Source: Solirubrobacteraceae bacterium (lineage in GTDB: Bacteria > Actinomycetota > Thermoleophilia > Solirubrobacterales > Solirubrobacteraceae). From it: 64,000 nt of DNA. The notes under the pieces are model-generated. The model ran no database searches. It was given only the letters and a program-made list of their open reading frames with translations, and was not told where the DNA came from. The DNA lies in contig JANJTP010000002.1 in assembly GCA_024711025.1 (NCBI GenBank), positions 1 to 64,000 of the forward strand, read 5' to 3'. Below, one piece after another: positions 7,913 to 40,082 of the stretch. Every line of letters begins with the position of its first letter. Position 1 is the first letter of the stretch. Both the position numbers and the translations under genes were made by a program.

Positions 7913-9547
7913 GTGCGGCGGCGTGGCCACCTGACCGCGCCGCTGATCGAACGCCGCCTGCGCCCCGCGCTAGGCGCGGCCATGGTCGTCGTCGCCGGGG
8001 CCCTCGCGGCGACGTGCGGCGGCGGCGACCGCGACCGCGACCTATCGCCCCCGGGCGCGACGGCCGTCGCGCAAGCCGCGACGCCTCGGCCGGCCGGCGG
8101 CGCTGACGCCGCCGTGCCCGCCGCGACGCCCGTGGCCCACCCCCCGATCGTGCTGATGATCTTCGACGAGCTGCCGATGGCCTCGCTGCTCGGCGAAGGC
8201 GGCCATGGCGTGGATCGCCGGCGCTACCCCGGGTTCGCCCGACTGGCCGTGCGCTCGACGCTGTTCCGGAACGCCACGACCGTCGCCGACGGCACGTTCG
8301 TCGGCGTCCCGCCGATCCTCAACGGCCGCATCCCGCGCGCCGACCTGAAGGGGCGCAGCTCCAGGCGCTTCAACGTCTTCACGCTGCTCGACCCCCGATA
8401 CGCGATCCGCTCCTACGAGCCGATCACGCGCGTCTGCCCGCCGCGGATCTGCGGGGCGAGCCGGCGGCTGCTCGCGATCGACCCCGCCGCGGCGGGCAGG
8501 GACCTACCGGCGCTGCGCCTGCGCGAGGCGCGCAAGCTGATCGATGCGATCGGGCGGGGCTCGCGGCCGTCCGCGACGATCGTCCACGTCGTGCTGCCGC
8601 ATGTGCCGTGGCGCTTCTTCCCCGACGGCCGCGAGTACGAGGTGGCCGGCTCGCAGATACCGGGGCTCGGCGCGAGGCAGGTCTGGAGCGCCAACCCGCA
8701 GCCCGCGCGGCTGGGTCTGCAGCGCCACCTGCTTCAGCTCGCCTACGCCGATCGCTTCGTCGCTCGTGCGATCGACCGCCTGCGGCGCCGCGGCCTCTGG
8801 GACCGCGCGCTGGTCGTCGTCACCGCCGACCACGGGGCGAGCTTCACGCCGGGCGTCCCGCGCCGCGCCGTGACACGCGCCAACTTCGCCCAGGTGGCGA
8901 ACGTGCCGATCTTCGTGAAGCTGCCCGGCCAGCGGCGCGGCGCGGTGAGCGACGCGCCGGCTCAGACGGTCGACATCCTGCCGACGATCGCCGCGGTCAC
9001 CGGGCTCGGCGGGGGATGGAAGCTCCAGGGCCACTCGCTGACCGAGCCGCACCCGGCCGTCACCCCGCAGGTGCGCAACGGCCGGCGGGCGGCGATCGTG
9101 CGCATGGGGCTCGCGCGGTTCACGCGTGAGCGCGACGCCTGGGTCAGGCGCCTGCAGGGCCTCTACCCGCCGGGCCGCGGCGCGCTCTATCGCGCGGGCC
9201 CGAACCGCGGGCTCGTCGGACGCCGGGAGGCCCGGATCGGCCACGTCAGCGCCGCCGGCCGATCGGCGACGATCGCCGGCGCCGGCGCGCTGGTAGCGGG
9301 GCGGACCGCCGCGGGGCGGCTGCCCGCCTACGTGAGCGGCACCCTGAGCGGGGTGCGCTCGGGGCGGCCGCTTGCGATCTCGGTCAACGGGCGGGTCGCC
9401 GCCGTCGGCGCCTCGTTCGTACAGGGCGGGCTCGTGTCCTACGCGATGATCGTGCCGCCCGGGAGCGTGAGCCACGCCGGCAACCGCGTTTCGGTCTTCG
9501 AGGTGGTCGGCCGCTCCAGGCTGCGGCGGCTGGCGAGCGCGGGGTGA
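7913..9547 (+). CDS. Sulfatase/alkaline-phosphatase superfamily protein, membrane-anchored or secreted
   Basis: A 544-residue protein. A hydrophobic segment at ~18-34 could be a signal or anchor, followed by a Pro/Ala-rich linker to ~75. The catalytic domain (~78-400) has the metal-site start IVLMIFDELP, HVVLPHVPWRFFPDG and VTADHGASFTPG, typical of the sulfatase/phosphoglycerol-transferase (LtaS-like) fold. The usual Cys/Ser-X-Pro-X-Arg formylglycine motif is not seen, so it is more likely a phosphotransferase or phosphodiesterase than a true sulfatase. Start GTG 7913 is tentative; ATG 7982 would remove part of the N-terminus. Confidence 0.75.
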   Translation: MRRRGHLTAPLIERRLRPALGAAMVVVAGALAATCGGGDRDRDLSPPGATAVAQAATPRPAGGADAAVPAATPVAHPPIVLMIFDELPMASLLGEGGHGVDRRRYPGFARLAVRSTLFRNATTVADGTFVGVPPILNGRIPRADLKGRSSRRFNVFTLLDPRYAIRSYEPITRVCPPRICGASRRLLAIDPAAAGRDLPALRLREARKLIDAIGRGSRPSATIVHVVLPHVPWRFFPDGREYEVAGSQIPGLGARQVWSANPQPARLGLQRHLLQLAYADRFVARAIDRLRRRGLWDRALVVVTADHGASFTPGVPRRAVTRANFAQVANVPIFVKLPGQRRGAVSDAPAQTVDILPTIAAVTGLGGGWKLQGHSLTEPHPAVTPQVRNGRRAAIVRMGLARFTRERDAWVRRLQGLYPPGRGALYRAGPNRGLVGRREARIGHVSAAGRSATIAGAGALVAGRTAAGRLPAYVSGTLSGVRSGRPLAISVNGRVAAVGASFVQGGLVSYAMIVPPGSVSHAGNRVSVFEVVGRSRLRRLASAG

Positions 9548-9573
9548 GCGAGGTCGAGGTTCCCGATGGCAGT

Positions 9574-9681
9574 GAGCGTCTCGGCAGCCGCGAGCGTCTC
9601 TACGGCAGCGAGCGTCTCTACGGCAGCGAGCGTCTCTACGGCAGCGAGCGTCTCTACGGCAGCGAGCGCCTCGACAGCCGC
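9574..9681. repeat. 18-bp minisatellite, six units
   Basis: The unit GAGCGTCTCTACGGCAGC occurs exactly at 9592, 9610, 9628 and 9646, with diverged units at 9574 and 9664. It lies in the 325-bp gap between the sulfatase-like gene and the GntR gene. Because 18 is a multiple of three all frames stay open, but there is no start signal or coding support, so I treat it as non-coding. Confidence 0.85.
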
Positions 9682-9737: not shown

Positions 9738-9780
9738 GTGGCTGCAGAAACACCAGCCCTACCTGAGCTACTGCAGCCAG
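9738..9780 (-). repeat. 43-bp hairpin element, copy 3
   Basis: Arms GTGGCTGCAG (9738-9747) and CTGCAGCCAG (9771-9780) pair over 9 bp around a 23-nt loop that is the reverse complement of the copy 2 loop with few changes (ends ACCTGAGCTA). The flanks GCCGCGAGA (9727-9735) and TCTCGCGGC (9784-9792) form a further 9-bp stem of quite different sequence from the flanking stems of the other copies. Confidence 0.85.
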
Positions 9781-9872
9781 GTCTCTCGCGGCGGCGTGTC
9801 GCGGCGCCCCGCCGGGCGCGTGGTCGAGGCGAGCCGCGGTGTCCGGCTTCACCCCGTCGGTATGGTGAGCCG

Positions 9873-11393
9873 GTGGATCAGCGTGTGCCGCCTCGACCGC
9901 TCGGGCCGCGGCACGCGCCGATCAGGAGCGTGACCGAGCAGGTCGCGTACGAGCTGCGCAGCCACATCCAGCGGGAGCGGATGCAGCCCGGCGACCGTCT
10001 CGGTCGCGAGGAGGACCTCGCCCAGGCGTTCGGCGTCAGCCGCCCGACGATGCGCGAGGCGCTGGGGCTGCTCGCCGGCGCCGGCCTGCTGCGTGCGAGC
10101 CGCGGCCCGGGCGGTGGGATATTCGTCGCACGCACCGTCGAGGACGGGATCAGCCACGCGGTGGCTCAGTCGATCGCCGCCATGCTCGACGTCGACGCGA
10201 TCTCGATGGGCGAGCTCGTCGACGCGCGCCTGTTGCTCGAGACCGCGATCGTACGGCTCGCCGCCGAGCACATCGACGAAGCCGCCTGCGCCGAGCTCGC
10301 CGAGGTCATGGTCGAGATCGAGCGAGAGCCGGAGGACGTCGTCTCGTTCCAGGCCGCCGATGCGCGCTTCCACCGCGCGGTCGCCCGCGCCTCTGGCAAC
10401 CTGATGCTCCAGGCGATCATCGACTGGGCGTTCGAGGTGCTCCAGCCGCGCGTCTACCAGCTCGCGCCTCCGGTGTCCGCAGGGGACCTGATACCCCAGC
10501 ACCACGCGGTCCTGGCCGCTCTGAAGGCGCACGATCCCGACGCGGCCGAGCGGGCGATGCGCGAGCACGTCCAGCACGTGGGCGGCGTCGTCGCCGAGGC
10601 CGAGAGGCCGCGCGGGCGATCCCGTTCGCGCAGGGGGAGCGCTTCCGACGCGGGCGCCACCCGCATCGAGCAGGAGCCCGCGACGAGCGGTGCCGAGCGC
10701 ACCGCCCAGGAGCTTCGCTCTCATATCCAGTCGGCTCTGCTGGAGCCCGGGGACCGTATCGGCCGCGAGGCCGAGCTCGCCACGCAGTTCGGCGTCAGTC
10801 GCCCCGTCCTGCGCGAGGCTCTCCGCCTGCTCGCGAGCTCGAACCTGGTCCGTACGAGCAGAGGCCCGGGGGGCGGCGTGTTCCTCGCCAACACCTTCGA
10901 GGGCGGCATGGGCCAGGCGCTGAGCGACTCCGTCTCGCTGCTCCTCGAGGCCGGTGCGATCAGCGTGGAGGAGCTGCTCGAAGCTCGCACCGCGATCGAG
11001 GTCCCGCTTGCCGGGGCTGCCGCAGCCGGCTCTGGCAACGAGTTGGTCGACGCCCTGCGCGACACCATGAACGGCGGGGGCGCGACGACAGAGGATCACG
11101 TCGACGTCGGTTCTCGCGCCCGCAGCTTCCACGGCGCCATCGCTCAAGCAACCGACAACCGGATAGTGGTCAGCGTCACCGACTGGATCTGGAATGCCCT
11201 CGAACCCGCCTTTGACGCTCTCGTCGGCTCCAGCATCAGCGACGAGGTGATCGCCGGCCAGCATGACGCGGTCCTGAACGAGATCGAGGCCGGGAACGTC
11301 GCCGGCGCCGAGCAGGCTATGCGGGAGCACCTGCTCTACCTGAGCGGTCTCGTCGACCAGGCCCGTGATCGTGAGCCGGCGACGCCCTCGTGA
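9873..11393 (+). CDS. Double-headed GntR/FadR-type regulator (two HTH-FCD modules in one chain)
   Basis: A 506-residue protein with two complete GntR winged-helix plus FCD modules in tandem. Module 1 has HTH ~20-85 (GVSRPTMREALGLL) and FCD ~95-235, with DARFH and later His residues fitting the metal-binding ligands. Module 2 has HTH ~275-335 (GVSRPVLREALRLL) and FCD ~345-500. In FCD2 the Asp of D-A-R-F-H is replaced (ARSFH), so one metal ligand seems lost. Both wings share RGPGGG. The start GTG 9873 is the first in-frame start after the 43-bp repeat; GTG 9930 is the alternative. It faces the catabolic genes and probably controls the promoter at 11557. GntR proteins bind as dimers, so one chain may act as a built-in dimer. 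Confidence 0.85.
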   Translation: MDQRVPPRPLGPRHAPIRSVTEQVAYELRSHIQRERMQPGDRLGREEDLAQAFGVSRPTMREALGLLAGAGLLRASRGPGGGIFVARTVEDGISHAVAQSIAAMLDVDAISMGELVDARLLLETAIVRLAAEHIDEAACAELAEVMVEIEREPEDVVSFQAADARFHRAVARASGNLMLQAIIDWAFEVLQPRVYQLAPPVSAGDLIPQHHAVLAALKAHDPDAAERAMREHVQHVGGVVAEAERPRGRSRSRRGSASDAGATRIEQEPATSGAERTAQELRSHIQSALLEPGDRIGREAELATQFGVSRPVLREALRLLASSNLVRTSRGPGGGVFLANTFEGGMGQALSDSVSLLLEAGAISVEELLEARTAIEVPLAGAAAAGSGNELVDALRDTMNGGGATTEDHVDVGSRARSFHGAIAQATDNRIVVSVTDWIWNALEPAFDALVGSSISDEVIAGQHDAVLNEIEAGNVAGAEQAMREHLLYLSGLVDQARDREPATPS

Positions 11394-11543
11394 GGTCGTA
11401 GCAACACCACACAAGATGGCCCCTGCGCGGGGACCCAAAGGCCGTCGGGCGCGGTCCTCGACATCCACATCACGCGTGCGGCAGCGAGCGGGGCGAGCGG
11501 CGGGACTCGCAGATCAAGAGGCAGCGAGCACGACCCCAGGGGC

Positions 11544-11585
11544 TTGATCAAATGGTTTGACATGTTGATCGTGCCTGCGTATGAT
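11544..11585 (+). promoter_or_regulatory. Strong sigma-70-type promoter with overlapping palindrome (aldolase operon)
   Basis: TTGACA (11557-11562) and TATGAT (11580-11585) are separated by exactly 17 bp. The inverted repeat TCAAA-TGG-TTTGA (11548-11560) lies on the -35 box, and the direct repeat TTGATC occurs at 11544 and 11565. This is a likely operator for the double GntR encoded just upstream. A roughly 95-nt leader follows to the GTG at 11689. Confidence 0.7.
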
Positions 11586-11688
11586 CGCCGCGTCACGGTC
11601 GCTTCGAGGCGATTCCGTCAGTTAAATGGCACGACCCCTTCACGGGGAAGGTGACAGCTTCTTTGGGATGTCGAACGGGAGGTACGAC

Positions 11689-12444
11689 GTGACCTCGACC
11701 CAGAGGGTTCTCGCACCCGAGCTGCAGCAACAGCTCGAGGGAGCGAAGTGGGACGTCAAGGAACGGCTCACCCTTGCGTGCCGCATGCTGGCCGCAGACG
11801 GGCATAGCACGTCGCTCGCCGGACAGGTGACCGCCCGCCTCGAAGACGACACTTTCTGGACCGCGCCTCTTGGCCTACTGTTCGACGAAGTCCGGCCTGG
11901 GGACCTGGTACGTATCGACGACTCGCTCGACGTTGTGGAAGGTGCGCGACGGCCGAACCCCGCAACCCAGTTTCACATGTGGGTCTATCGGCAGCGCCCC
12001 GACGTGAAGTGCATCATCCACACGCATCCGCCGAACGTATCGGCGCTGTCGATGATCGGCGAGCCGCTGGTGGTCTCGCACATGGACGCCACTCCGCTGT
12101 TCGACGACTGTGGATTCCTTGCCGACTGGCCGGGTCTGCCCCTCGCCGATCATGAGGGTCGGCTCATCGCCGACGCCCTTGGTGGGCGTCGTGCGGTGCT
12201 CCTCGCGCACCACGGGTTGCTCACGGCTGGGTCGAGCATCGAAGAGGCGGCGACGCTGGCCATCTTCATGGAGAACGCGGCGCGGCTGCAACTGCTCGCT
12301 CGCGCTGCCGGTGAGGTCAGGTCAATTCCCACAGGCCTCGCACAGGAGGCACACGACTTCCTGCTGCAGCCAAGCATCGTGAACGCCACCTTCGCGGCGT
12401 TTGCCCGTCGGGTCATGCGCAAGGACGCCACGTGCTTTGGATGA
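11689..12444 (+). CDS. Class II aldolase/adducin family protein
   Basis: A 251-residue Zn-dependent aldolase or epimerase of the AraD/FucA fold. The Zn ligands are visible as HTHP (H-x-H) and HHG later in the chain, and AAT...FMEN is the usual C-terminal helix. Start GTG 11689 is chosen because GGGAGG (11677-11682) stands 6 nt upstream; earlier ATGs at 11626 and 11668 lack a ribosome binding site. It is the first gene of the catabolic cluster, behind the 11557 promoter. Family members cleave or epimerise sugar-phosphate or hydroxy-acid aldols; some act as decarboxylases or demethylmenaquinone-pathway enzymes, so the substrate is open. Confidence 0.9.
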   Translation: MTSTQRVLAPELQQQLEGAKWDVKERLTLACRMLAADGHSTSLAGQVTARLEDDTFWTAPLGLLFDEVRPGDLVRIDDSLDVVEGARRPNPATQFHMWVYRQRPDVKCIIHTHPPNVSALSMIGEPLVVSHMDATPLFDDCGFLADWPGLPLADHEGRLIADALGGRRAVLLAHHGLLTAGSSIEEAATLAIFMENAARLQLLARAAGEVRSIPTGLAQEAHDFLLQPSIVNATFAAFARRVMRKDATCFG

Positions 12445-12466
12445 CGCGCCAGCGGGCGTCTGCAGC

Positions 12467-12495
12467 GAGCGTGCGCCACACGGTGGCGCACGCTC
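12467..12495 (+). terminator. Very stable 13-bp hairpin between aldolase and molybdoenzyme genes
   Basis: GAGCGTGCGCCAC (12467-12479) and GTGGCGCACGCTC (12483-12495) pair perfectly with a 3-nt loop (ACG), 22 nt after the aldolase stop. There is no T-run. It may end or attenuate transcription or protect the 3' end of the upstream message within the operon. Confidence 0.55.
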
Positions 12496-12558
12496 CGGCC
12501 GGCGACCGGATCGTGGTCCACCCGCGCGGGCGGCGCAGCCGTGGACAGAACCACGTCA

Positions 12559-14892
12559 ATGGCTGAGCCCCGGCAGACCGTCACCCATTGGGGCTCGTAT
12601 CACGCCGAGACCGAGGATGGGCGTCTCGTTGGCCTGCGCCCTGTCGGAGATGACCCCTACCCGTCCCCGATCGGGCGTTCGGTGGTCGACGCACGCGAGG
12701 CCCCATCGCGGCTGCTCACACCGATGGTGCGCCGTGGCTTCCTGGAGGACGGACCACGCAAGGGCGGCAACCGGCGCGGTGGCGAGCCATTCGTCCGGGT
12801 CTCGTGGGATCACGCGCTGGATCTCATCGCGCGGGAGCTCGCGCGGGTCAAGGACGAGCACGGTAACCAAGCCATCTACGGAGGGTCGTACGGTTGGGCG
12901 AGCGCTGGGCGGTTCCACCATGCACAGAGCCAGCTTTCCCGGTTCCTCAACCTGTTCGGTGGTCATACCGACAAGGTGAACACCTACAGCTTTGCGGCGG
13001 TGGAGGTTCTTCTACCCCGCGTGCTCGGCGAGACTGTTCTTGAGCATGGCAGGACGATCCCCACGTGGGACGAGATCGCCGCTCACACGGAGCTTGTCGT
13101 GTCATTCGGTGGGCTGCCCCTGAAGAACACGCAGATCAATCCGGGCGGTGTGAGAAGGCACCTCACCCGCGAGGGCCTGAAGTCCTGTCGAGACGCCGGT
13201 GTGGAGTTCGTGTCGATCAGCCCGCTCCGAGAGGATGCTGCGGACCTCGTCGATCCCGAGCGCATCACCCTGCGCCCCAACACCGATACCGCGGTGATGC
13301 TCGCATTGGCTCACACCATCGTCTCGGAGGACCGGCACGACAAGGACTTCCTCGAGGCGTGCTGCGTCGGGTTCGAGCGCTTCCGGCCCTACCTCATGGG
13401 CGAGAGCGACGGCCAGCCGAAGGACGCAGAGTGGGCTGCAGGCATCGCCGGTATCGAAGCCGACACGATTCGGGCGCTCGCTCGGCGAATTGCCTCCAAG
13501 CGCACGCTCATCACCGTCATGTGGTCCCTGCAACGCGCCGATCACGGCGAGCAGCCGTGCTGGATGGCCGTCGTCCTCGCCGCAGTTGCGGGACAGCTCG
13601 GCAAGGTCGGCGGGGGCGTAGGCATCGGCTACTGCGGTGACCACTACATGGGCACCGTCCAGTACGCGGTTCCTGTTGCAGCCATGCCTAAGGGGACGAA
13701 CCCCGTACGTACCCACATCCCCGTCGCCCGCATTGCCGACATGCTGCTGAACCCGGGTGAGACGATCGACTACGACGGTCAACGCATCGCCTACCCGGAC
13801 ATTCGTCTCGTCTACTGGTGCGGAGGAAACCCCTTCCATCATCACCAGGACGTCAATCGCCTTCTGCGGGCGTGGCAAGAGCCCGAGACGATCATCGTCC
13901 ACGAGCCGTTCTGCAATCCCGTGGCGCGGCACGCGGACATCGTCCTGCCCGCGACCCTGATGGTTGAGCGAAACGACTTTGCGGCTGGTCGCGCGGACGC
14001 CCATCTTCAAGCGATGCATCGCGTGGCTGCGCCCCCGGGCGAAGCATGGGATGACTTCGCTATCTTTGCCGCACTCGCGGAGCGGCTCGGACTGGCCGCG
14101 GAGTTCACCGAAGGACGCAGTGCTGACGAGTGGCTGCGGTACCTCTACGACCTCACTCAGCTTCGCGCCGCCGAGGTCGGCGTCGCGCTACCTGACTTCG
14201 AGGCGTTCTGGCGGACGGGGAGCGTCGAGTTCCCGATTCCGGAGGGCCATCACGAGCGCCCGTGGCAGTATCAGCGCCTGCGCGAGGACCCCGAGGCGAA
14301 CCCGTTGTCGACCCCTTCCGGCAGGGTGGAGATCTTCTCGGAGACCATCGATCGCTTCGGGTACGACGATTGCCCGGGCCACCCAGTGTGGCTCGAGCCA
14401 ATCGAGTGGCTTGGCTCCCCGGCAGCCGCGAGGTTTCCGCTTCACATGCTGTCGAATCAGCCCAAGACGAGACTGCACAGTCAGTACGACAACGGGATCA
14501 CGAGTCGCGAGAGCAAGATACGAGGGCGTGAGCCGGTCACGATCAACCCGCGCGACGCTGCGGAACGGGGCATCGTCGACGGCGACGTCGTGCGCCTGTT
14601 CAACGATCGTGGTGCCTGCCTAGCCGGCGCAATCGTGAGCGATGGGGTCGCGCCCGGGGTCGTGCAGATCGCGACGGGAGCCTGGTATGACCCCTTGGAG
14701 CCGGGAGCAGTGGGGAGTCTCGACCGGCACGGCAACCCAAACCTGCTCACGCGCGATGCGGGCACGTCGAAGTTGGCGCAGGGGCCGATCGCGCAGACGA
14801 CGTTGATCGACATCGAGCGGTACGACGGTGAGCCGCCACCGATCACCGCCTTCGACTACCTACAGACCAGCCCGAACGGCGCAGCAGCCTGA
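12559..14892 (+). CDS. Molybdopterin oxidoreductase, biotin sulfoxide/TMAO/DMSO reductase type (BisC-like)
   Basis: A 777-residue enzyme binding a bis-MGD molybdenum cofactor. The motif YGGSYGW near residues 107-113 carries the Ser that ligates Mo in this family (about residue 110), and there is no N-terminal Cys cluster, so no 4Fe-4S. No Tat signal is present, so it is cytoplasmic like BisC. The C-terminal cofactor domain has HMLSNQPKTRLHSQYDN. Known relatives reduce S- or N-oxides (biotin or methionine sulfoxide, TMAO). Here it sits between an aldolase and an amino-acid-type importer, so a role in a dedicated pathway is likely. Start ATG 12559 is preferred over GTG 12541. Confidence 0.9.
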   Translation: MAEPRQTVTHWGSYHAETEDGRLVGLRPVGDDPYPSPIGRSVVDAREAPSRLLTPMVRRGFLEDGPRKGGNRRGGEPFVRVSWDHALDLIARELARVKDEHGNQAIYGGSYGWASAGRFHHAQSQLSRFLNLFGGHTDKVNTYSFAAVEVLLPRVLGETVLEHGRTIPTWDEIAAHTELVVSFGGLPLKNTQINPGGVRRHLTREGLKSCRDAGVEFVSISPLREDAADLVDPERITLRPNTDTAVMLALAHTIVSEDRHDKDFLEACCVGFERFRPYLMGESDGQPKDAEWAAGIAGIEADTIRALARRIASKRTLITVMWSLQRADHGEQPCWMAVVLAAVAGQLGKVGGGVGIGYCGDHYMGTVQYAVPVAAMPKGTNPVRTHIPVARIADMLLNPGETIDYDGQRIAYPDIRLVYWCGGNPFHHHQDVNRLLRAWQEPETIIVHEPFCNPVARHADIVLPATLMVERNDFAAGRADAHLQAMHRVAAPPGEAWDDFAIFAALAERLGLAAEFTEGRSADEWLRYLYDLTQLRAAEVGVALPDFEAFWRTGSVEFPIPEGHHERPWQYQRLREDPEANPLSTPSGRVEIFSETIDRFGYDDCPGHPVWLEPIEWLGSPAAARFPLHMLSNQPKTRLHSQYDNGITSRESKIRGREPVTINPRDAAERGIVDGDVVRLFNDRGACLAGAIVSDGVAPGVVQIATGAWYDPLEPGAVGSLDRHGNPNLLTRDAGTSKLAQGPIAQTTLIDIERYDGEPPPITAFDYLQTSPNGAAA

Positions 14893-15079
14893 GTCAGCGC
14901 CTAGCTAGTGGCGCGACCCGCGAGATGAGAGCAACAGGCAAAGCGACGGGCCGCCACCGTGACGTCGTTGTCCCGCTGCGACGGATCCGACAAGGCGCCG
15001 TGCCTTTGAGCACGTCACGCAAGTGCAAAGAGGAGGACAAGACGGGCGAGGGATGAAAATCGAGGGATAGGAGAGAGAG

Positions 15080-15973
15080 ATGGAGCAAGTCACCCGCAAG
15101 GGTTTCCTGTGGCGTTCCGCGGCATCGACAACGGCACTGCTCGGCAGTGGCGCGTTCCTTGCGGCGTGCGGCGACGACAACGGTGCGGGCAATGCCAAGG
15201 CGGAGCCACGCAAGAGCATCACCATAGGCTTCGCGAACGTGGCGCCCTACTGCTTCGTGGGCGAGAACGGTGAGCCGAAGGGCCAGGCGCCGGAAGTGGC
15301 GCAGCGAGTCTTGAAGGATCTGGGCTTCACGGAAGTGCACGGCGTACTGACTGAGTGGGGCTCGCTCATCGGCGGACTGCTCGCCGACCGGTTCGACATG
15401 GTCGCCGCAGGGATGTTCATCACGCCGGAGCGCTGCACCCAGGTCCTCTTCTCGGATCCCGACTACGCGGCGCAGCAGGCGTTTGCGGTCGAGCGCGACG
15501 GTGCCTTCACGGGTCTCAGCAGCTGGCAGGACGTCGCCGGCAGCGACAAGCTGCGTCTGGGCCTCCTCGGAGGCTCGGTGGAGCTCGGCTTTGCAAAGGC
15601 GGTCGGCGTGCCCAAGTCGCGTATCTCGGTGTACCAGACGGGACCGGACGGCATGGAGGCGCTCAAGACGGGGCGTGTCGACGCGTTCGCTCTGCCCGCG
15701 GTCGGACTTCAGTGGGCCGTCAAGACGATGAAGGCCGATGACCTGGTGGTCACGACGCCGTTCTTCCCGGTGATCGATGGCGAGAAGAAGATCTCAGGGG
15801 GCGGATATGCCTTCAAGAAGAAGGACACGAAGCTTCGCGACGAGTTCAACACGAAGCTGCGAGCCCTGATGCAGGAGGGTGTGGTCGCTGAGATCGTCGA
15901 GCCCTACGGCTTTACGAAGGAGGCGGTGGACGCCGCTCAAGCGCTCACGGCGAGCAAGCTCTGCAGCGCCTAG
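15080..15973 (+). CDS. ehuB: Solute-binding lipoprotein, ectoine/hydroxyectoine (EhuB)-like
   Basis: A 297-residue family 3 binding protein. The signal ends with lipobox LAAC, giving lipidated Cys30. The mature part has the PBP fold (IGFANVAPYCFVGENG, later GGLLADRFDMVAAGMFITPERC), closest in my reading to ectoine-binding EhuB proteins. Strong ribosome binding site AGGAGAGAGAG before the ATG. It is followed by two permeases and an ATPase in the classical EhuBCDA order. Ectoine itself is uncertain because no ectoine-degradation (eutDE/doeAB) genes are in the window. Confidence 0.85.
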   Translation: MEQVTRKGFLWRSAASTTALLGSGAFLAACGDDNGAGNAKAEPRKSITIGFANVAPYCFVGENGEPKGQAPEVAQRVLKDLGFTEVHGVLTEWGSLIGGLLADRFDMVAAGMFITPERCTQVLFSDPDYAAQQAFAVERDGAFTGLSSWQDVAGSDKLRLGLLGGSVELGFAKAVGVPKSRISVYQTGPDGMEALKTGRVDAFALPAVGLQWAVKTMKADDLVVTTPFFPVIDGEKKISGGGYAFKKKDTKLRDEFNTKLRALMQEGVVAEIVEPYGFTKEAVDAAQALTASKLCSA

Positions 15974-16072
15974 CTGCTCGAGCGCCCAGATGCTTGCCGC
16001 TGTCGTCTACGTGGGCGGCGGGCCACCTCTGTTTGTGGCCCGCATCGCCTACCTCCGAGCGAAAGCAACGTG

Positions 16073-16786
16073 ATGGATGCCGTACTGAATGGCCTACCCC
16101 ATCTCTTTCGGGGGGCGCAGGTAACGGTGGAGATCACCATCCTCGCCGCGATCCTCGGCGCAGCGATGGCGTTTCCGATGGGAGTGCTCCGTCTGTCCAA
16201 GCGCAGGCTGGTCCGAACGTTGGCGGGCGCGTACGTCGAGTTCTTCCGAGGGACGTCTGCCCTCGTCCAGCTGTTCTGGCTCTTCTTCGTCCTACCGCTG
16301 GCAGGGATCAAACTAGACCCAATGACCGCCGGAGTCCTGGCCCTGGGCCTCAACATCGGTGCCTATGGGGCTGAGGTTGTGCGTGGTGCCGTTCAGTCGG
16401 TTCCGCATGGGCAGGTGGAAGCGGCGATAGCACTCAATATGACGGAGATGCAGCGCATGCGGCGAGTCGTGATCCCTCAGGCCCTGGTCGCCATGCTGCC
16501 GCCGTTGGGCAACCTCGCAATCGAGCTGTTGAAGCTGACGTCGCTCGTGTCGCTCATTACGCTCCATGACATCACGTTCAACGCCCAGACGCTGCGCGAG
16601 TCGGTCGGCCACACGACCGAGATATTTGCAGCAGTACTGCTGATGTACTTCGTCTTGGCTTCCGCGATCTCGGTAGGGATGCGCGCGTTGGAGCGACGCG
16701 TTGGGCGGTGGCGCGAAGCGCCGCTGGACCGAAGCCGCGCAGCGCTACGACAACTCGCGGACACCATGGGTGGCGTACCGGCATGA
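16073..16786 (+). CDS. ehuC: ABC importer permease, EhuC-like
   Basis: A ~237-residue polar amino-acid type (HisM) permease with about five membrane segments. FFRGTSALVQLFWLFFVLP is the conserved early region and EAAIALNMTEMQRMRR is the EAA loop that contacts the ATPase. GTG 16070 directly precedes the ATG 16073 and could also serve. The stop overlaps the start of the next permease gene (ATGA at 16783-16786). It forms the heterodimeric pore with the next protein. Confidence 0.88.
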   Translation: MDAVLNGLPHLFRGAQVTVEITILAAILGAAMAFPMGVLRLSKRRLVRTLAGAYVEFFRGTSALVQLFWLFFVLPLAGIKLDPMTAGVLALGLNIGAYGAEVVRGAVQSVPHGQVEAAIALNMTEMQRMRRVVIPQALVAMLPPLGNLAIELLKLTSLVSLITLHDITFNAQTLRESVGHTTEIFAAVLLMYFVLASAISVGMRALERRVGRWREAPLDRSRAALRQLADTMGGVPA

Positions 16787-17436
16787 GTTGGAGCTGGGAG
16801 TTCACCTGGGAGATCCTCCCCGAGCTCGCGAAGGCGGCCCTGGTCACGATCGAGGCCACACTGCTCGGATCAGTATTGGCCATGGTCATAGGACTGGTCG
16901 TGGCGCTGCTCCGACGGTCTCATAGCCGCCTCGTACGGGGTGCGACGATTGCAGTTACGGAGTTCATACGACGTACGCCGCTGCTGGTGCAGCTCTACTT
17001 CGTCTTCTTCGCTCTCCCCGCCTACGGTGTGACGTTGTCGCCCCTGGTGGCGGGCGTACTGACGCTTGGATTTCACTATGGCACCTACACCGCAGAGGTC
17101 TATCGAGCCGGCATCGATAGCGTGCCACGGGGGCAATGGGAGGCGGCGAAGGCGCTTAACCTGCCGCGGCGACGCATCTGGTCGATGGTGGTGCTGCCGC
17201 AGGCTATTCCAGCCGTCATCCCTGCTCTCGGCAACTACGTGATCGGGATGTTCAAGGAGACGCCGCTGCTCTCGGGGATTGCGGTGATCGAACTCCTCAA
17301 TCAGGCCAAGCTGATCAGTTCGGAGACCTACATCTTCCTCGAGCCGATCACGCTCGTTGGCGTGTTCTTCCTACTCCTCAGCTACCCGTCCGCAATCCTC
17401 ATCCGGCGCGCGGAGGCGCGAATCTCAAGGCGATGA
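16783..17436 (+). CDS. ehuD: ABC importer permease, EhuD-like
   Basis: A 217-residue HisM-type permease with the conserved [19 protein letters not shown] segment and EAA loop [18 protein letters not shown]. It is coupled to the upstream permease and the downstream ATPase by 4-bp overlaps on both sides. Together with the 16073 product it forms the membrane channel of the importer. Confidence 0.88.
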
Positions 17437-18284
17437 CGATCCTCAAGACGACGACCCTACAGAGCGATCCGGTAGAACGTCAGGCAGTGCCGGATCCCAC
17501 CCCTATGAAGGCCAGCGATATGGTGCGGTTTCGCCAGGTCAACAAGAGGTTCGGCGAGACGGTTGTGTTGCGGGACCTCGATCTTGATGTCGCCCCAGCC
17601 GAAAAGGTCGCGGTCATCGGGCCTAGCGGATCTGGGAAGACCACGATCCTGCGTCTTCTCATGACGCTCGAACAGCCGGATTCGGGAACGATCGAGGTGG
17701 ACGGAGAGCATCTCTGGCACAAGGCCAACAAGCGAGGGGAGCTAATCCCAGCCGACGAGAAGCACCTGCGGACGATGCGGACCCATCTGGGGATGGTGTT
17801 TCAGCACTTCAACCTGTTTCCGCACATGAGCGTGCTCCGCAATATCATCGAACCGCTGGTTCGAGTGCGTGGGATGTCGCGTGAGGAGGCCGCCACCCGC
17901 GGGCGCACCCTTCTGGACATGGTCGGGCTCGCGGAGAAGGAGTGTGCATATCCAGGCAGGCTGTCGGGTGGACAACAACAGCGAGTCGCGATCGCGCGAG
18001 CGCTTGCGATGGAGCCGAAGGTGATGCTGTTCGACGAAGTCACGTCGGCGTTGGACCCAGAGCTCGTGGGGGAGGTCTTGAGCGTGCTGAGGGAGTTGGC
18101 GCAGCAGACGGACATGACGATGATCTTCGTGACGCACGAGATGCGCTTCGCCCGAGAGGTAGCGGATCGGGTGGTGATGTTCGACCAGGGGCAGATAGTC
18201 GAGCAGGGCCCGCCGTGTGAGATCTTCAAGGATCCGACGAGTCCTCGGACAAGGGCCTTCCTCAAGGCCGTGCTGGAGCATTAG
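17433..18284 (+). CDS. ehuA: ABC importer ATPase, EhuA-like
   Basis: A 283-residue ATPase with Walker [10 protein letters not shown]-loop [11 protein letters not shown], signature LSGGQQQR and Walker [14 protein letters not shown]. The insertion DGEHLWHK...[10 protein letters not shown] after the first third is characteristic of ectoine/hydroxyectoine-type EhuA ATPases rather than GlnQ/HisP. The first ~25 residues (before [13 protein letters not shown]) are an extension; an internal start at ATG 17506 or 17521 is possible, but the 4-bp overlap at 17433 supports the longer form. Confidence 0.88.
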
Positions 18285-18952: not shown

Positions 18953-19121
18953 GCAAGGTGAATACCCGTACAAGGCAAAGAGCAAATGATCTGGATAGAA
19001 TCAACGGAGATGTTCGCGGGTGTCGGTCACGAGCTCGTCGTCAGCCAGCAAACGTCGAGATCCGGACTTGCAGGACGCGCGCCGGCTGTCCACACGACTC
19101 TGTACGACAGGAGAAGAGCCG

Positions 19122-20840
19122 ATGAAGGTCGTTGACGCGATCGCCGAGGCGATCATCGCGGAGCGTGTTGGTATGGCGTTCTGCGTTCCCGACGAGGTGA
19201 CGATCCACATCGGGCAGGCGCTGCGTGAGCGTGGCTTTCGCGTCGTTCGGGGGCGTCACGAGCAGAACGTCGTCGCGATGGCGGACGGCTACGCGCGCGC
19301 GACCGGGATGCCGGCCGTCTGCGCGGTCGGGCACGGTCCGGCGCTGGCGCAGACGGGGACAGGGATGATGACGGTCGCGCGCCGCCGCTCGCCGGTGCTC
19401 GTGCTGACACCCCAGGGCGATGAGAGTCGCGGCGGCGTCAAGGAGCTCGACGCGCGGCGGTTCGTCGAGAGCGTCGGGGCGCGTTACGTACAGATGCGCG
19501 GAGCCTCGTGGGTGTCGGAGGACGTACGCGAGGCGTTCCGGCTGGTGCGGCTGCGGCAGGGACCGGTGGTGCTCGCCGTCCCGCAGGTGTCCGGGATCGA
19601 GGCCGAGCTGCGCGGTCCGTGGCGGTACGAGCCGGCGATCGATCTGTTCCTGCGCCCGACGGCTCCGGATCCGGAGTCCGACGTGATCGACGAGGCGGCC
19701 GGGCTCTTGGCGTGGGCCCGCCAGCCGGTCATCGTCGCCGGGCGCGGGGCGGTGCTGTCCGGCGCGCGCGAGGAGATCGTGGTGCTCGCCGAGCGCACGG
19801 GCGCGCTGCTGGCCACGAGCCTGCAGGGGCGCGAGCTGTTCCGCGGGCATCCGCGCAACATTGGCATGATCGGCGCCTATGGGACCGACACGGCCGTCGA
19901 GCTGCTGGCCGAGGCCGACTGCATACTTGCCGTCGGCGTCGCGCTGAACGCCTATCAGACGGGGGGCGGCACGCTCGCGGCGAACGCCCGCGTGATCCAG
20001 ATCGACAGCGACCCGAGTCGCATAGGCGAGATCGCGCGCGTCGACGGCGCGATCGTGGCCGACGCGCGGGCGGCTGTACAGGCGATCAACCGCGCTCTGG
20101 AGCAGGCTGAGATCTCACCGTCGAGCGCTTGGACGACCGATGCCATGTGTGAGCGCGTGGCGTCCGCATCCCGACCGGTGCTCGGGTCGCCGCTCGCCGA
20201 GCCCGACGCCTCGGGGCGCATGCCGATGACGCCGGTCCTGCGCGGTCTCGAAGCGCTGCTGCCCAAAGAGCGGGTCGTCATCGCCGACGCCGGCGACTTC
20301 GTCCTCTACACGATCGACGAGATCTCCGTGCCGGATCCGGGCTCCTGGGTGTGGACGGCAGACTTCGGATCGATCGGCCTCGGGCTTGGCGTCGGACTCG
20401 GAACGGCTCTCGCCCGGCCGGATCGCCACTGCGTGCTCTTCGCGGGCGATGGCGGCTTCATGATGAACGTGCAGGAGCTCGAGACGGCGGTGCGGGAGCG
20501 CATACCGCTGACGATGGTCGTGCTCGACGACTGCGCGTATCGGCCCGAGGTGCGCTTCATGGAGGCGCTCGGCAAGCCGGGGGACGTGGGCCTCTTCGAC
20601 GAGGTCGACTTCGCCGCGGTCGCGCGCGCGTTCGGCATCCCGGCCGTGACGGTGCGCGCGCTCGAAGACCTCGACGCCGTGGCCGACCTGCTGGTCGGCC
20701 GCGAGGGCCCGGTGCTGATCGACGCCAAGGTCAGCGGCCTCGAGATCCACCGCTCGTTCGCCTCGTATGAGCCGGGCACACTGATCCCGGCTGCCAAGGG
20801 GTCACCGGTCGTAGCCGCTGAAGTGCCGTCGGCTCGCTGA
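19122..20840 (+). CDS. Thiamine diphosphate-dependent decarboxylase/lyase (acetolactate synthase-like)
   Basis: A 572-residue ThDP enzyme with the three standard domains. The catalytic Glu that activates ThDP is in RHEQNVVAMADGYARATG. The Mg/ThDP motif starts GDGGFMMNVQELE and ends with DD in place of the more usual NN (MVVLDDCAY). Relatives include acetolactate synthase, benzoylformate decarboxylase, sulfoacetaldehyde acetyltransferase and oxalyl-CoA decarboxylase; I cannot choose among them. Start ATG 19122 follows AGGAGAAGAG; the open frame back to 19020 has no family similarity. It sits between the importer operon and the HyuBA operon and likely cleaves a 2-keto acid made in the pathway. 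Confidence 0.88.
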   Translation: MKVVDAIAEAIIAERVGMAFCVPDEVTIHIGQALRERGFRVVRGRHEQNVVAMADGYARATGMPAVCAVGHGPALAQTGTGMMTVARRRSPVLVLTPQGDESRGGVKELDARRFVESVGARYVQMRGASWVSEDVREAFRLVRLRQGPVVLAVPQVSGIEAELRGPWRYEPAIDLFLRPTAPDPESDVIDEAAGLLAWARQPVIVAGRGAVLSGAREEIVVLAERTGALLATSLQGRELFRGHPRNIGMIGAYGTDTAVELLAEADCILAVGVALNAYQTGGGTLAANARVIQIDSDPSRIGEIARVDGAIVADARAAVQAINRALEQAEISPSSAWTTDAMCERVASASRPVLGSPLAEPDASGRMPMTPVLRGLEALLPKERVVIADAGDFVLYTIDEISVPDPGSWVWTADFGSIGLGLGVGLGTALARPDRHCVLFAGDGGFMMNVQELETAVRERIPLTMVVLDDCAYRPEVRFMEALGKPGDVGLFDEVDFAAVARAFGIPAVTVRALEDLDAVADLLVGREGPVLIDAKVSGLEIHRSFASYEPGTLIPAAKGSPVVAAEVPSAR

Positions 20841-39362: not shown

Positions 39363-40082
39363 ATGCTCGAGAAGATGCCAAACCAGAGCCCGACCGCCGT
39401 CGACGGGAGCCGGATGCCGGCCGTCGAGCGGCCGCTGTCGCTGGCCGAGCACGTCCGCGCCGTCGTTCGCGACGACATCATCTCGGGTCGCCTCCTTCCC
39501 GGCGATCGGCTGAGCGAAGCCTTCGTCACCGAGCGGGCCGGTGTCAGTCGCACCCCCGTGCGCGAGGCGATGCGGCTGCTGCAGGCCGAGGGGCTGATCC
39601 ACGCCGAGCGCGGCCGCGGCGCCTTCGTCGCCTACCAGCTCTCGTTCGAGGAGGCGCTGCTGATCTACCGCTGCCGGCTCGTCATCGAGCCGTTCATGGC
39701 GAAGCTCGCGGCGGAGCGCGCGACGCCCGCCGACGTACGCCGCTGCGAGGAGATCCTCGAGCGCTTCACCGCGGCGGTCGATCAGCACGAGGACACCCTG
39801 AGGATCATCTCGGTCGACGGCGAGTTCCACAGCGCGATCTACGACGCGAGCAACAGCGAGCTCGTCGCCATCTTCCGCTCCTACTGGGCCAAGCTGCAGT
39901 TCCAGCTCTCGGCGCGCGTCTACGGCCGCGAGCTTCCCGCCCGCTTCGGCAAGGAGCACGAGGCGATCCTCGCGGCGATCCGCGAGGGCGACGGGCGCGC
40001 CGCGAGCAGCCTGATGACGGACCACATCAAGCACGGCCAGCGCCGGATCAAGGAGTCGTTCGCCGAGAGGGGCGCGCAGTGA
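39363..40082 (+). CDS. GntR/FadR-family (FCD) transcriptional regulator
   Basis: A 239-residue regulator with an N-terminal winged helix (GVSRTPVREAMRLLQAEGLI at ~60-80) and a C-terminal FCD ligand domain with DGEFHSAIYDAS and EHEAI/DHIKHG His residues for metal and ligand binding. It lies within the operon, 4 bp after CoxL and overlapping CoxG. GAGGAG touches ATG 39363 directly; ATG 39375 would have better spacing. It likely senses a pathway acid and controls the hyuB promoter. Confidence 0.88.
   Translation: MLEKMPNQSPTAVDGSRMPAVERPLSLAEHVRAVVRDDIISGRLLPGDRLSEAFVTERAGVSRTPVREAMRLLQAEGLIHAERGRGAFVAYQLSFEEALLIYRCRLVIEPFMAKLAAERATPADVRRCEEILERFTAAVDQHEDTLRIISVDGEFHSAIYDASNSELVAIFRSYWAKLQFQLSARVYGRELPARFGKEHEAILAAIREGDGRAASSLMTDHIKHGQRRIKESFAERGAQ

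Follow-up and report, generated by a model that had tools for sequence, protein, structure and literature searches.

The window analyzed here is a 64,000-nucleotide stretch from the genome of a Solirubrobacteraceae bacterium (3.14 Mb, 97% complete, 72 contigs). It carries a regulator gene of the double-headed GntR/FCD type at 9873-11393 (+), on a 145-kb contig, which encodes 506 amino acids from the start codon GTG 9873 and contains a terminal stop only. The open frame around this gene spans 9738-11393 (+). GTG 9930 is an alternative start in the same frame, and the first wHTH is intact from either start. Both halves of the 506-residue frame look coding, because the GC content is biased by codon position (0.80, 0.48, and 0.91 at positions 1, 2, and 3 in the module A half and 0.73, 0.51, and 0.85 in the module B half). 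In addition, the two halves of the protein showed 41% identity over 229 residues (E = 2e-52), which is far beyond chance. The source genome contains 17 FCD matches, and the only frame with two of them is that at 9873-11393. An ordinary single-module FCD regulator is located at 39363-40082 of the same window. The opposite strand of the regulator gene contains a 539-codon open frame (9849-11468), which is most likely a side effect of codon bias at high GC content. The gap that separates the regulator gene from a sulfatase-family gene holds a tandem array (9568-9672) in which an 18-bp unit is repeated 5.8 times with 90% matches; its copy number could be variable.

In the 506-residue protein, Pfam recognized GntR (PF00392) twice, with a total E of 1.7e-31, and FCD (PF07729) twice, with a total E of 5.3e-44. 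The wHTH of module A covers approximately residues 20 to 85 (9930-10127 (+); model elements H20-33 to E82-85), and its FCD domain lies at 10212-10574 (+) with the site residues D163, H167, H210, and H232. An Arg/Ser-rich linker, visible in the sequence and modeled with low confidence, occupies residues 246 to 270 (10608-10682 (+)). It is followed by module B, with a Pfam GntR wHTH at residues 274 to 333 (10692-10871 (+)) and an FCD domain at 10971-11333 (+), in which the corresponding residues are A416 (Asp lost), H420, H464, and H486. Both FCD domains were placed by profile match and alignment, and both pass the profile cutoff of 24.3 bits (95.7 bits for A and 66.5 bits for B). An earlier note, made from the sequence alone, had described two complete HTH-FCD modules in one 506-residue chain. 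This description was borne out by the Pfam matches, the open frame, and the alignment of the halves, and no stop separates the modules, the frame being continuous from 9873 to 11393. The protein belongs to the FCD (FadR) subfamily of the GntR superfamily, as it has both the GntR wHTH and the FCD domain, and it departs from the usual one module per chain of this family in having two.

We also examined structure models of the protein. The whole-chain model drew seven FCD helices after the wing in both A and B, one A helix being drawn in two pieces, and by this number the predicted fold matches the FadR group. Module B modeled alone formed a wHTH and a seven-helix FCD domain with a mean pLDDT of 80.2. 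The single-chain model of all 506 residues had a pTM of 0.42, which left the mutual arrangement of the modules unfixed, and it was rejected as proof of a pseudo-dimer because it was too uncertain. Clade-conserved columns, defined as those common to at least 20 of the 24 single-module relatives described below, were kept at 28/30 positions in the wHTHs of both modules and at 26/34 (A) and 25/34 (B) positions in the FCD domains. Module B also retains the DNA-reading helix. Because both modules keep the conserved columns of the wHTH and the FCD domain, a split of roles between a sensing module and a DNA-binding module, as had been suggested, is not supported.

The genes after a promoter at 11557 all run in one direction, with the regulator gene just upstream. 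They encode a class II aldolase (11626-12444 (+); PRK07090, 348 bits against a cutoff of 261), a molybdopterin S/N-oxide reductase (12541-14892 (+); bisC family, 975 against a cutoff of 1018), and an ABC transporter consisting of a binding protein, two permeases, and an ATPase (15080-18284 (+)). Scans of the transporter genes covered all but the second permease (16708-17436) and gave matches to the EhuB, EhuC, and EhuA models over their cutoffs. All three are likely targets of the regulator. Such a combination of aldolase, bisC-family S/N-oxide reductase, and EhuABC-type transporter genes in a single run (11626-18284) is unusual. Judging from the model matches, the transporter substrate may be ectoine-like or amino acid-like. 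Ectoine regulators (EnuR) are described as being of the MocR type (PMC8739950).

Single-module relatives and the metal sites

Within the order, 28 of 232 genomes had a match at an E value of 1e-25 or better, the source genome being counted. The retrieved loci of the order contained no second two-module frame, with three weaker matches lying outside this set, and no second genome with this double-module gene was found, so that the gene is known from one assembly. The closest relatives are all single-module proteins, comprising 24 loci with 40 to 47% identity in the same clade (SH-aLRT 99). Some relatives have long frames (524 aa, 537 aa, and others), which were considered as doubles and rejected because one module was matched. 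The module tree, with 78 rows, put both A and B in a clade of 26 rows whose other members are the 24 single-module proteins (SH-aLRT 99); the other double proteins fell outside it. The single-module relatives share this clade and kindred operator sites (CAAA-N3-TTTG) with the window's protein, whereas they differ in having one module, all with the Asp, and other neighboring genes. Inference of the regulon, and with it the ligand, from gene neighborhood was abandoned because the window's neighboring genes are not common to the relatives, save for weak likenesses of a TPP enzyme, an AMP ligase, an ABC ATPase, and one aldolase.

At the aligned site positions, module A reads D, H, H, H and module B reads A, H, H, H (motif DARFH versus ARSFH). 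All 24 single-module relatives of the clade read D, H, H, H. The first position in 46 other single modules is D in 36, N in 9, and Y in 1, and the three His are all kept in 41 of them. Asp or Asn is therefore found at this position in 69/70 single modules (24/24 and 45/46). The loss of Asp in module B is thus a real exception, with the histidines remaining. The second metal site had earlier been called decayed. The Asp-to-Ala change in B was confirmed, but "decayed" is too strong a word for module B because the three His, the helical FCD domain, and the DNA-reading helix remain.

Published descriptions of this site offer points of comparison. A D146A mutation of the equivalent Asp in E. coli DgoR is reported to reduce ligand binding and not DNA binding, and a Pseudomonas FCD protein is reported to have Asn at the Asp position (PMC7674646). 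The TM0439 site is described in one source as three His plus acetate (PMC7674646), while Asn or Asp is counted among the ligands in TM0439 and PS5454 in another (PMC7797058); these two accounts disagree on TM0439. FadR itself is described as being without a metal site (PMC7674646), and the site is thus not family defining. Because Asp is present in 24/24 single-module relatives and lost in B, and because of the reported effect of DgoR D146A, an unequal pair of sensor sites in one chain appears plausible.

Promoter and candidate operator

A pattern search identified the promoter-like sequence TTGACA-17-TATGAT at 11557-11585 (+), which was the only promoter-like match in 2.3 kb (shuffle mean, 0.0). 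The window contains no other match to this pattern at two or fewer mismatches, and at least one was obtained in 20 of 100 shuffles. The palindrome CAAATGGTTTG (11549-11559; extended form TCAAA-TGG-TTTGA, 11548-11560) overlaps the -35 box. It forms the core (CAAA-TGG-TTTG) of the likely operator ATCAAATGGTTTGAC at 11547-11561, which had the top matrix score in the window. In the whole genome, CAAATNNTTTG has one exact copy, which is the one at the promoter. The region proposed in the earlier note for footprinting (11540-11590) therefore contains both the leading candidate for the operator and a promoter close to consensus. The operator matrix, which was built from ten sites of relatives that were themselves chosen by likeness to the pattern, gave 23.1 for the site at 11547 and 15.9 for the next site, and the best scores of 20 shuffles were 9.5 to 16.2. 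The next site (18981-18995), upstream of a TPP-enzyme gene (19020-20840), is a possible weaker second operator with a score that falls inside the shuffle range.

In the neighborhoods of the 24 single-module relatives, CAAA-N3-TTTG with one mismatch or none gave 21 hits, of which 16 were at promoter-like positions. Such positions make up 13.4% of the DNA, and the share of 16/21 was the highest among 40 control palindromes. The corresponding binomial P of 1e-10 is overstated because AT-rich words favor promoter-like positions; CAAA-N4-TTTG gives 9/13. Several of the hits have informative neighbors. At two relatives' loci (L092 and L093) they lie between a regulator and a benzoylformate decarboxylase-like TPP gene, and at a third (L049) a site separates a TPP gene of that kind from a gene for lactate/malate dehydrogenase, a layout that is alike at L088. 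L049 also has two operator-like sites 23 bp apart (8355-8390) upstream of an aldo/keto reductase gene. Of 23 regulators (19 genomes), 3 had exact sites within 2 kb, versus a chance expectation of 0.04 (31 sites in 93.4 Mb); two of the three are near-copies. By exact-hit count, the operator pattern tied for second among 72 control palindromes. These tests are not fully independent because the window and some of the tested loci were where the pattern was first recognized. Taken at the level of sequence patterns, CAAATGGTTTG is likely to be the operator of the double regulator.

Other signals in this region were considered and dropped. The first reading was a site with one mismatch to the FadR consensus TKGT-N3-ACMA, TGGTTTGACAT (11553-11563), with a nested outer repeat GATCAA-N13-TTGATC. 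It was abandoned for CAAA-N3-TTTG because the consensus is at chance level in the window (12 sites versus 13.0 by chance) and is not conserved beside the relatives. The GATC-rich character of the promoter was rejected as a signal; with 626 copies of GATC across the window, those near the promoter mean little. A generic palindrome count in the relatives' promoters returned GC-rich words only.

Other double FCD proteins

The earlier note had called for an architecture search, and GntR-FCD-GntR-FCD proteins were indeed found elsewhere; the architecture is not unique. With a profile of double proteins, 9 double loci were detected in 7 of 396 genomes of the phylum, or 8 loci in 6/396 genomes when the source genome is excluded. 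They include a 490-aa protein on a plasmid of Streptomyces sp. NBC_00080 (WP_142270206.1, annotated as an FCD-domain protein) and a 477-aa protein on a plasmid of Rhodococcus jostii RHA1 (WP_011600154.1, annotated as a GntR regulator). Among ten other doubles scanned, two FCD stretches each passed alone in nine, and the second GntR domain passed alone in two. In the R. jostii double, Pfam sees one GntR and one FCD domain, and the second module was located by BLAST. The Streptomyces and Rhodococcus doubles resemble the window's protein in having two wHTH-FCD modules per chain (477 to 490 aa) but differ in forming a separate clade, in lacking the Asp in both modules, and in having acyl-CoA and oxidoreductase genes as neighbors. 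Asp was found in 0/20 modules of the other doubles and the three His in 19/20. The contrast with the 69/70 single modules that have Asp or Asn is striking, but it comes from two lineages and from an alignment column with gaps in several rows.

A second tree of 59 rows contained A, B, two neighboring genes of Mycobacterium branderi, all 20 modules of the ten other doubles, and subsets of the single modules (15 of 24 from the clade and 20 of 46 from outside it). The first modules and the second modules of the other doubles formed two groups, a pattern expected from a single ancient duplication passed on intact, with A and B at other positions. A constraint that put all 22 double modules together in one clade cost 40.75 log units, and a single origin of all double FCD proteins was rejected (p-AU 0.0133). 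On the evidence of these trees, the window's double has an origin separate from that of the other doubles. The best trees do not place A and B as sisters; because their sisterhood was not rejected (p = 0.199), the pair may have come either from internal duplication or from fusion of two paralogues.

The M. branderi genes are two adjacent unfused FCD genes on a plasmid (L116:2501-4132) that branch next to the other doubles. This match, which covers 100% of the query, was considered as a fusion and rejected because it consists of two genes. The pair, which lies outside the 70 singles, reads H at the site position in one gene and D in the other, and it is possible that it represents a prefusion state.

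We also compared the protein with known systems. The best matches in the PDB are single-module regulators that form dimers, and E. coli NanR (PDB 6on4 and 6wfq) ranks first among them by both sequence (E = 8.5e-21 to module A) and fold. NanR has the same wHTH-FCD module and differs in having one module per chain. It is described as having a metal-assisted ligand site with Asp172 and His176 and a GGTATA repeat as its operator (PMC8012715). The window's protein scored 207 bits against the NanR equivalog NF003011, below the cutoff of 260. The 14 PDB sequences matched include no tandem FCD protein, the longest having 265 aa and one module. Rv3060c of Mycobacterium tuberculosis, which we take to be approximately 490 aa, would fit a double module and is a possible double. 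Its size was not found in the literature looked through, in which it is listed as a FadR-family GntR regulator (PMC9927256). No paper on a tandem FCD protein was found, as judged by titles and the starts of abstracts and with subscription papers outside the scope. The domain family is well known, and public records contain the double architecture, of which the window's protein is a separate variant.

Proposed mode of action and its alternatives

Our main reading, to which we assign a probability of about one-half, is that the protein is a covalent pseudo-dimer repressor that binds the palindrome of the ancestral dimer and senses mainly via module A. Two protomers of a FadR-group FCD regulator would have merged into one chain, whose two wHTHs would pair in cis and read the two halves of the single palindrome CAAATGGTTTG. 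The bound protein would cover the -35 box at 11557 and thereby deny RNA polymerase access to the aldolase/reductase/Ehu-type transporter operon. A small operon substrate and a divalent metal would bind to module A, with its Asp and three His, and the protein would be released. Module B, with its Ala and three His, would fold and bind DNA, but its ligand binding would be weak, altered, or absent, and the pseudo-dimer would respond unequally. One chain per palindrome is the simplest arrangement because two DNA heads pair elsewhere in FCD regulators and because a kindred palindrome lies over the -35 box. The overlap with this box is the one observation that points to repression rather than activation. 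One-sided ligand binding has a precedent, since in the reported crystals of the NanR dimer just one of the protomers carries Zn and ligand (PMC8012715).

Alternatively, two chains could pair via their FCD domains, and the resulting four DNA heads would occupy two sites simultaneously, in a tandem or looped complex, such as 11547 together with 18981 or with weaker half-sites near the promoter. Atu1419 of Agrobacterium fabrum is described as a tetrameric FCD regulator with two palindrome-binding dimers (PMC7797058), and it thus has four heads per functional unit, although on four separate chains and in the VanR group with six FCD helices. The weaker site at 18981, the six-base repeat TTGATC at 11544 and 11565, and the paired sites of L049 would suit such an assembly. 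However, the promoter has a single strong site, the genome contains a single exact site, and the 18981 score does not exceed the shuffles, and we consider this arrangement unlikely. More doubtful still is the idea that one module does the DNA and ligand work, the other being a passenger or inhibitory appendage from a recent duplication or fusion. Module B would be the candidate, as it is without the Asp, has a weaker FCD score than A (66.5 versus 95.7 bits), and has a longer branch (1.02 versus 0.65). Nevertheless, it retains its DNA-reading helix and its conserved columns (28/30 and 25/34) and folds well alone in the model, and although A and B diverged long enough ago for a loss to be visible, the frame has stayed open. 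It is very improbable that two separate genes were joined by a sequencing or assembly error. The gene is present in one genome only, and the M. branderi plasmid demonstrates that unfused pairs exist, but there is no in-frame stop, the base bias is of the coding type in both halves, and the modules differ at 59% of positions, which speaks against a collapsed repeat.

Beyond the pseudo-dimer repressor itself, we tentatively raise a broader possibility. Single-chain FCD dimers may have arisen at least two times, with the fused copies each time losing the acidic fourth metal ligand, in B alone here and in both modules in the other lineage. Fusion might free a site from inducer binding and fix an unequal pseudo-dimer, thereby making permanent the ligand-induced one-sided state of NanR.

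FCD regulators make up a very large family in bacteria and function as dimers. Because both protomers are identical, the weight of each protomer's ligand site is hard to test. In a natural chain with one complete and one altered site, each half can be changed on its own, and the window's protein is a clear test case because close single-module relatives with kindred operator sites exist. If the broader possibility is true, the fusion arose twice with loss of the same residue on both occasions, and nature would in effect have repeated the experiment.
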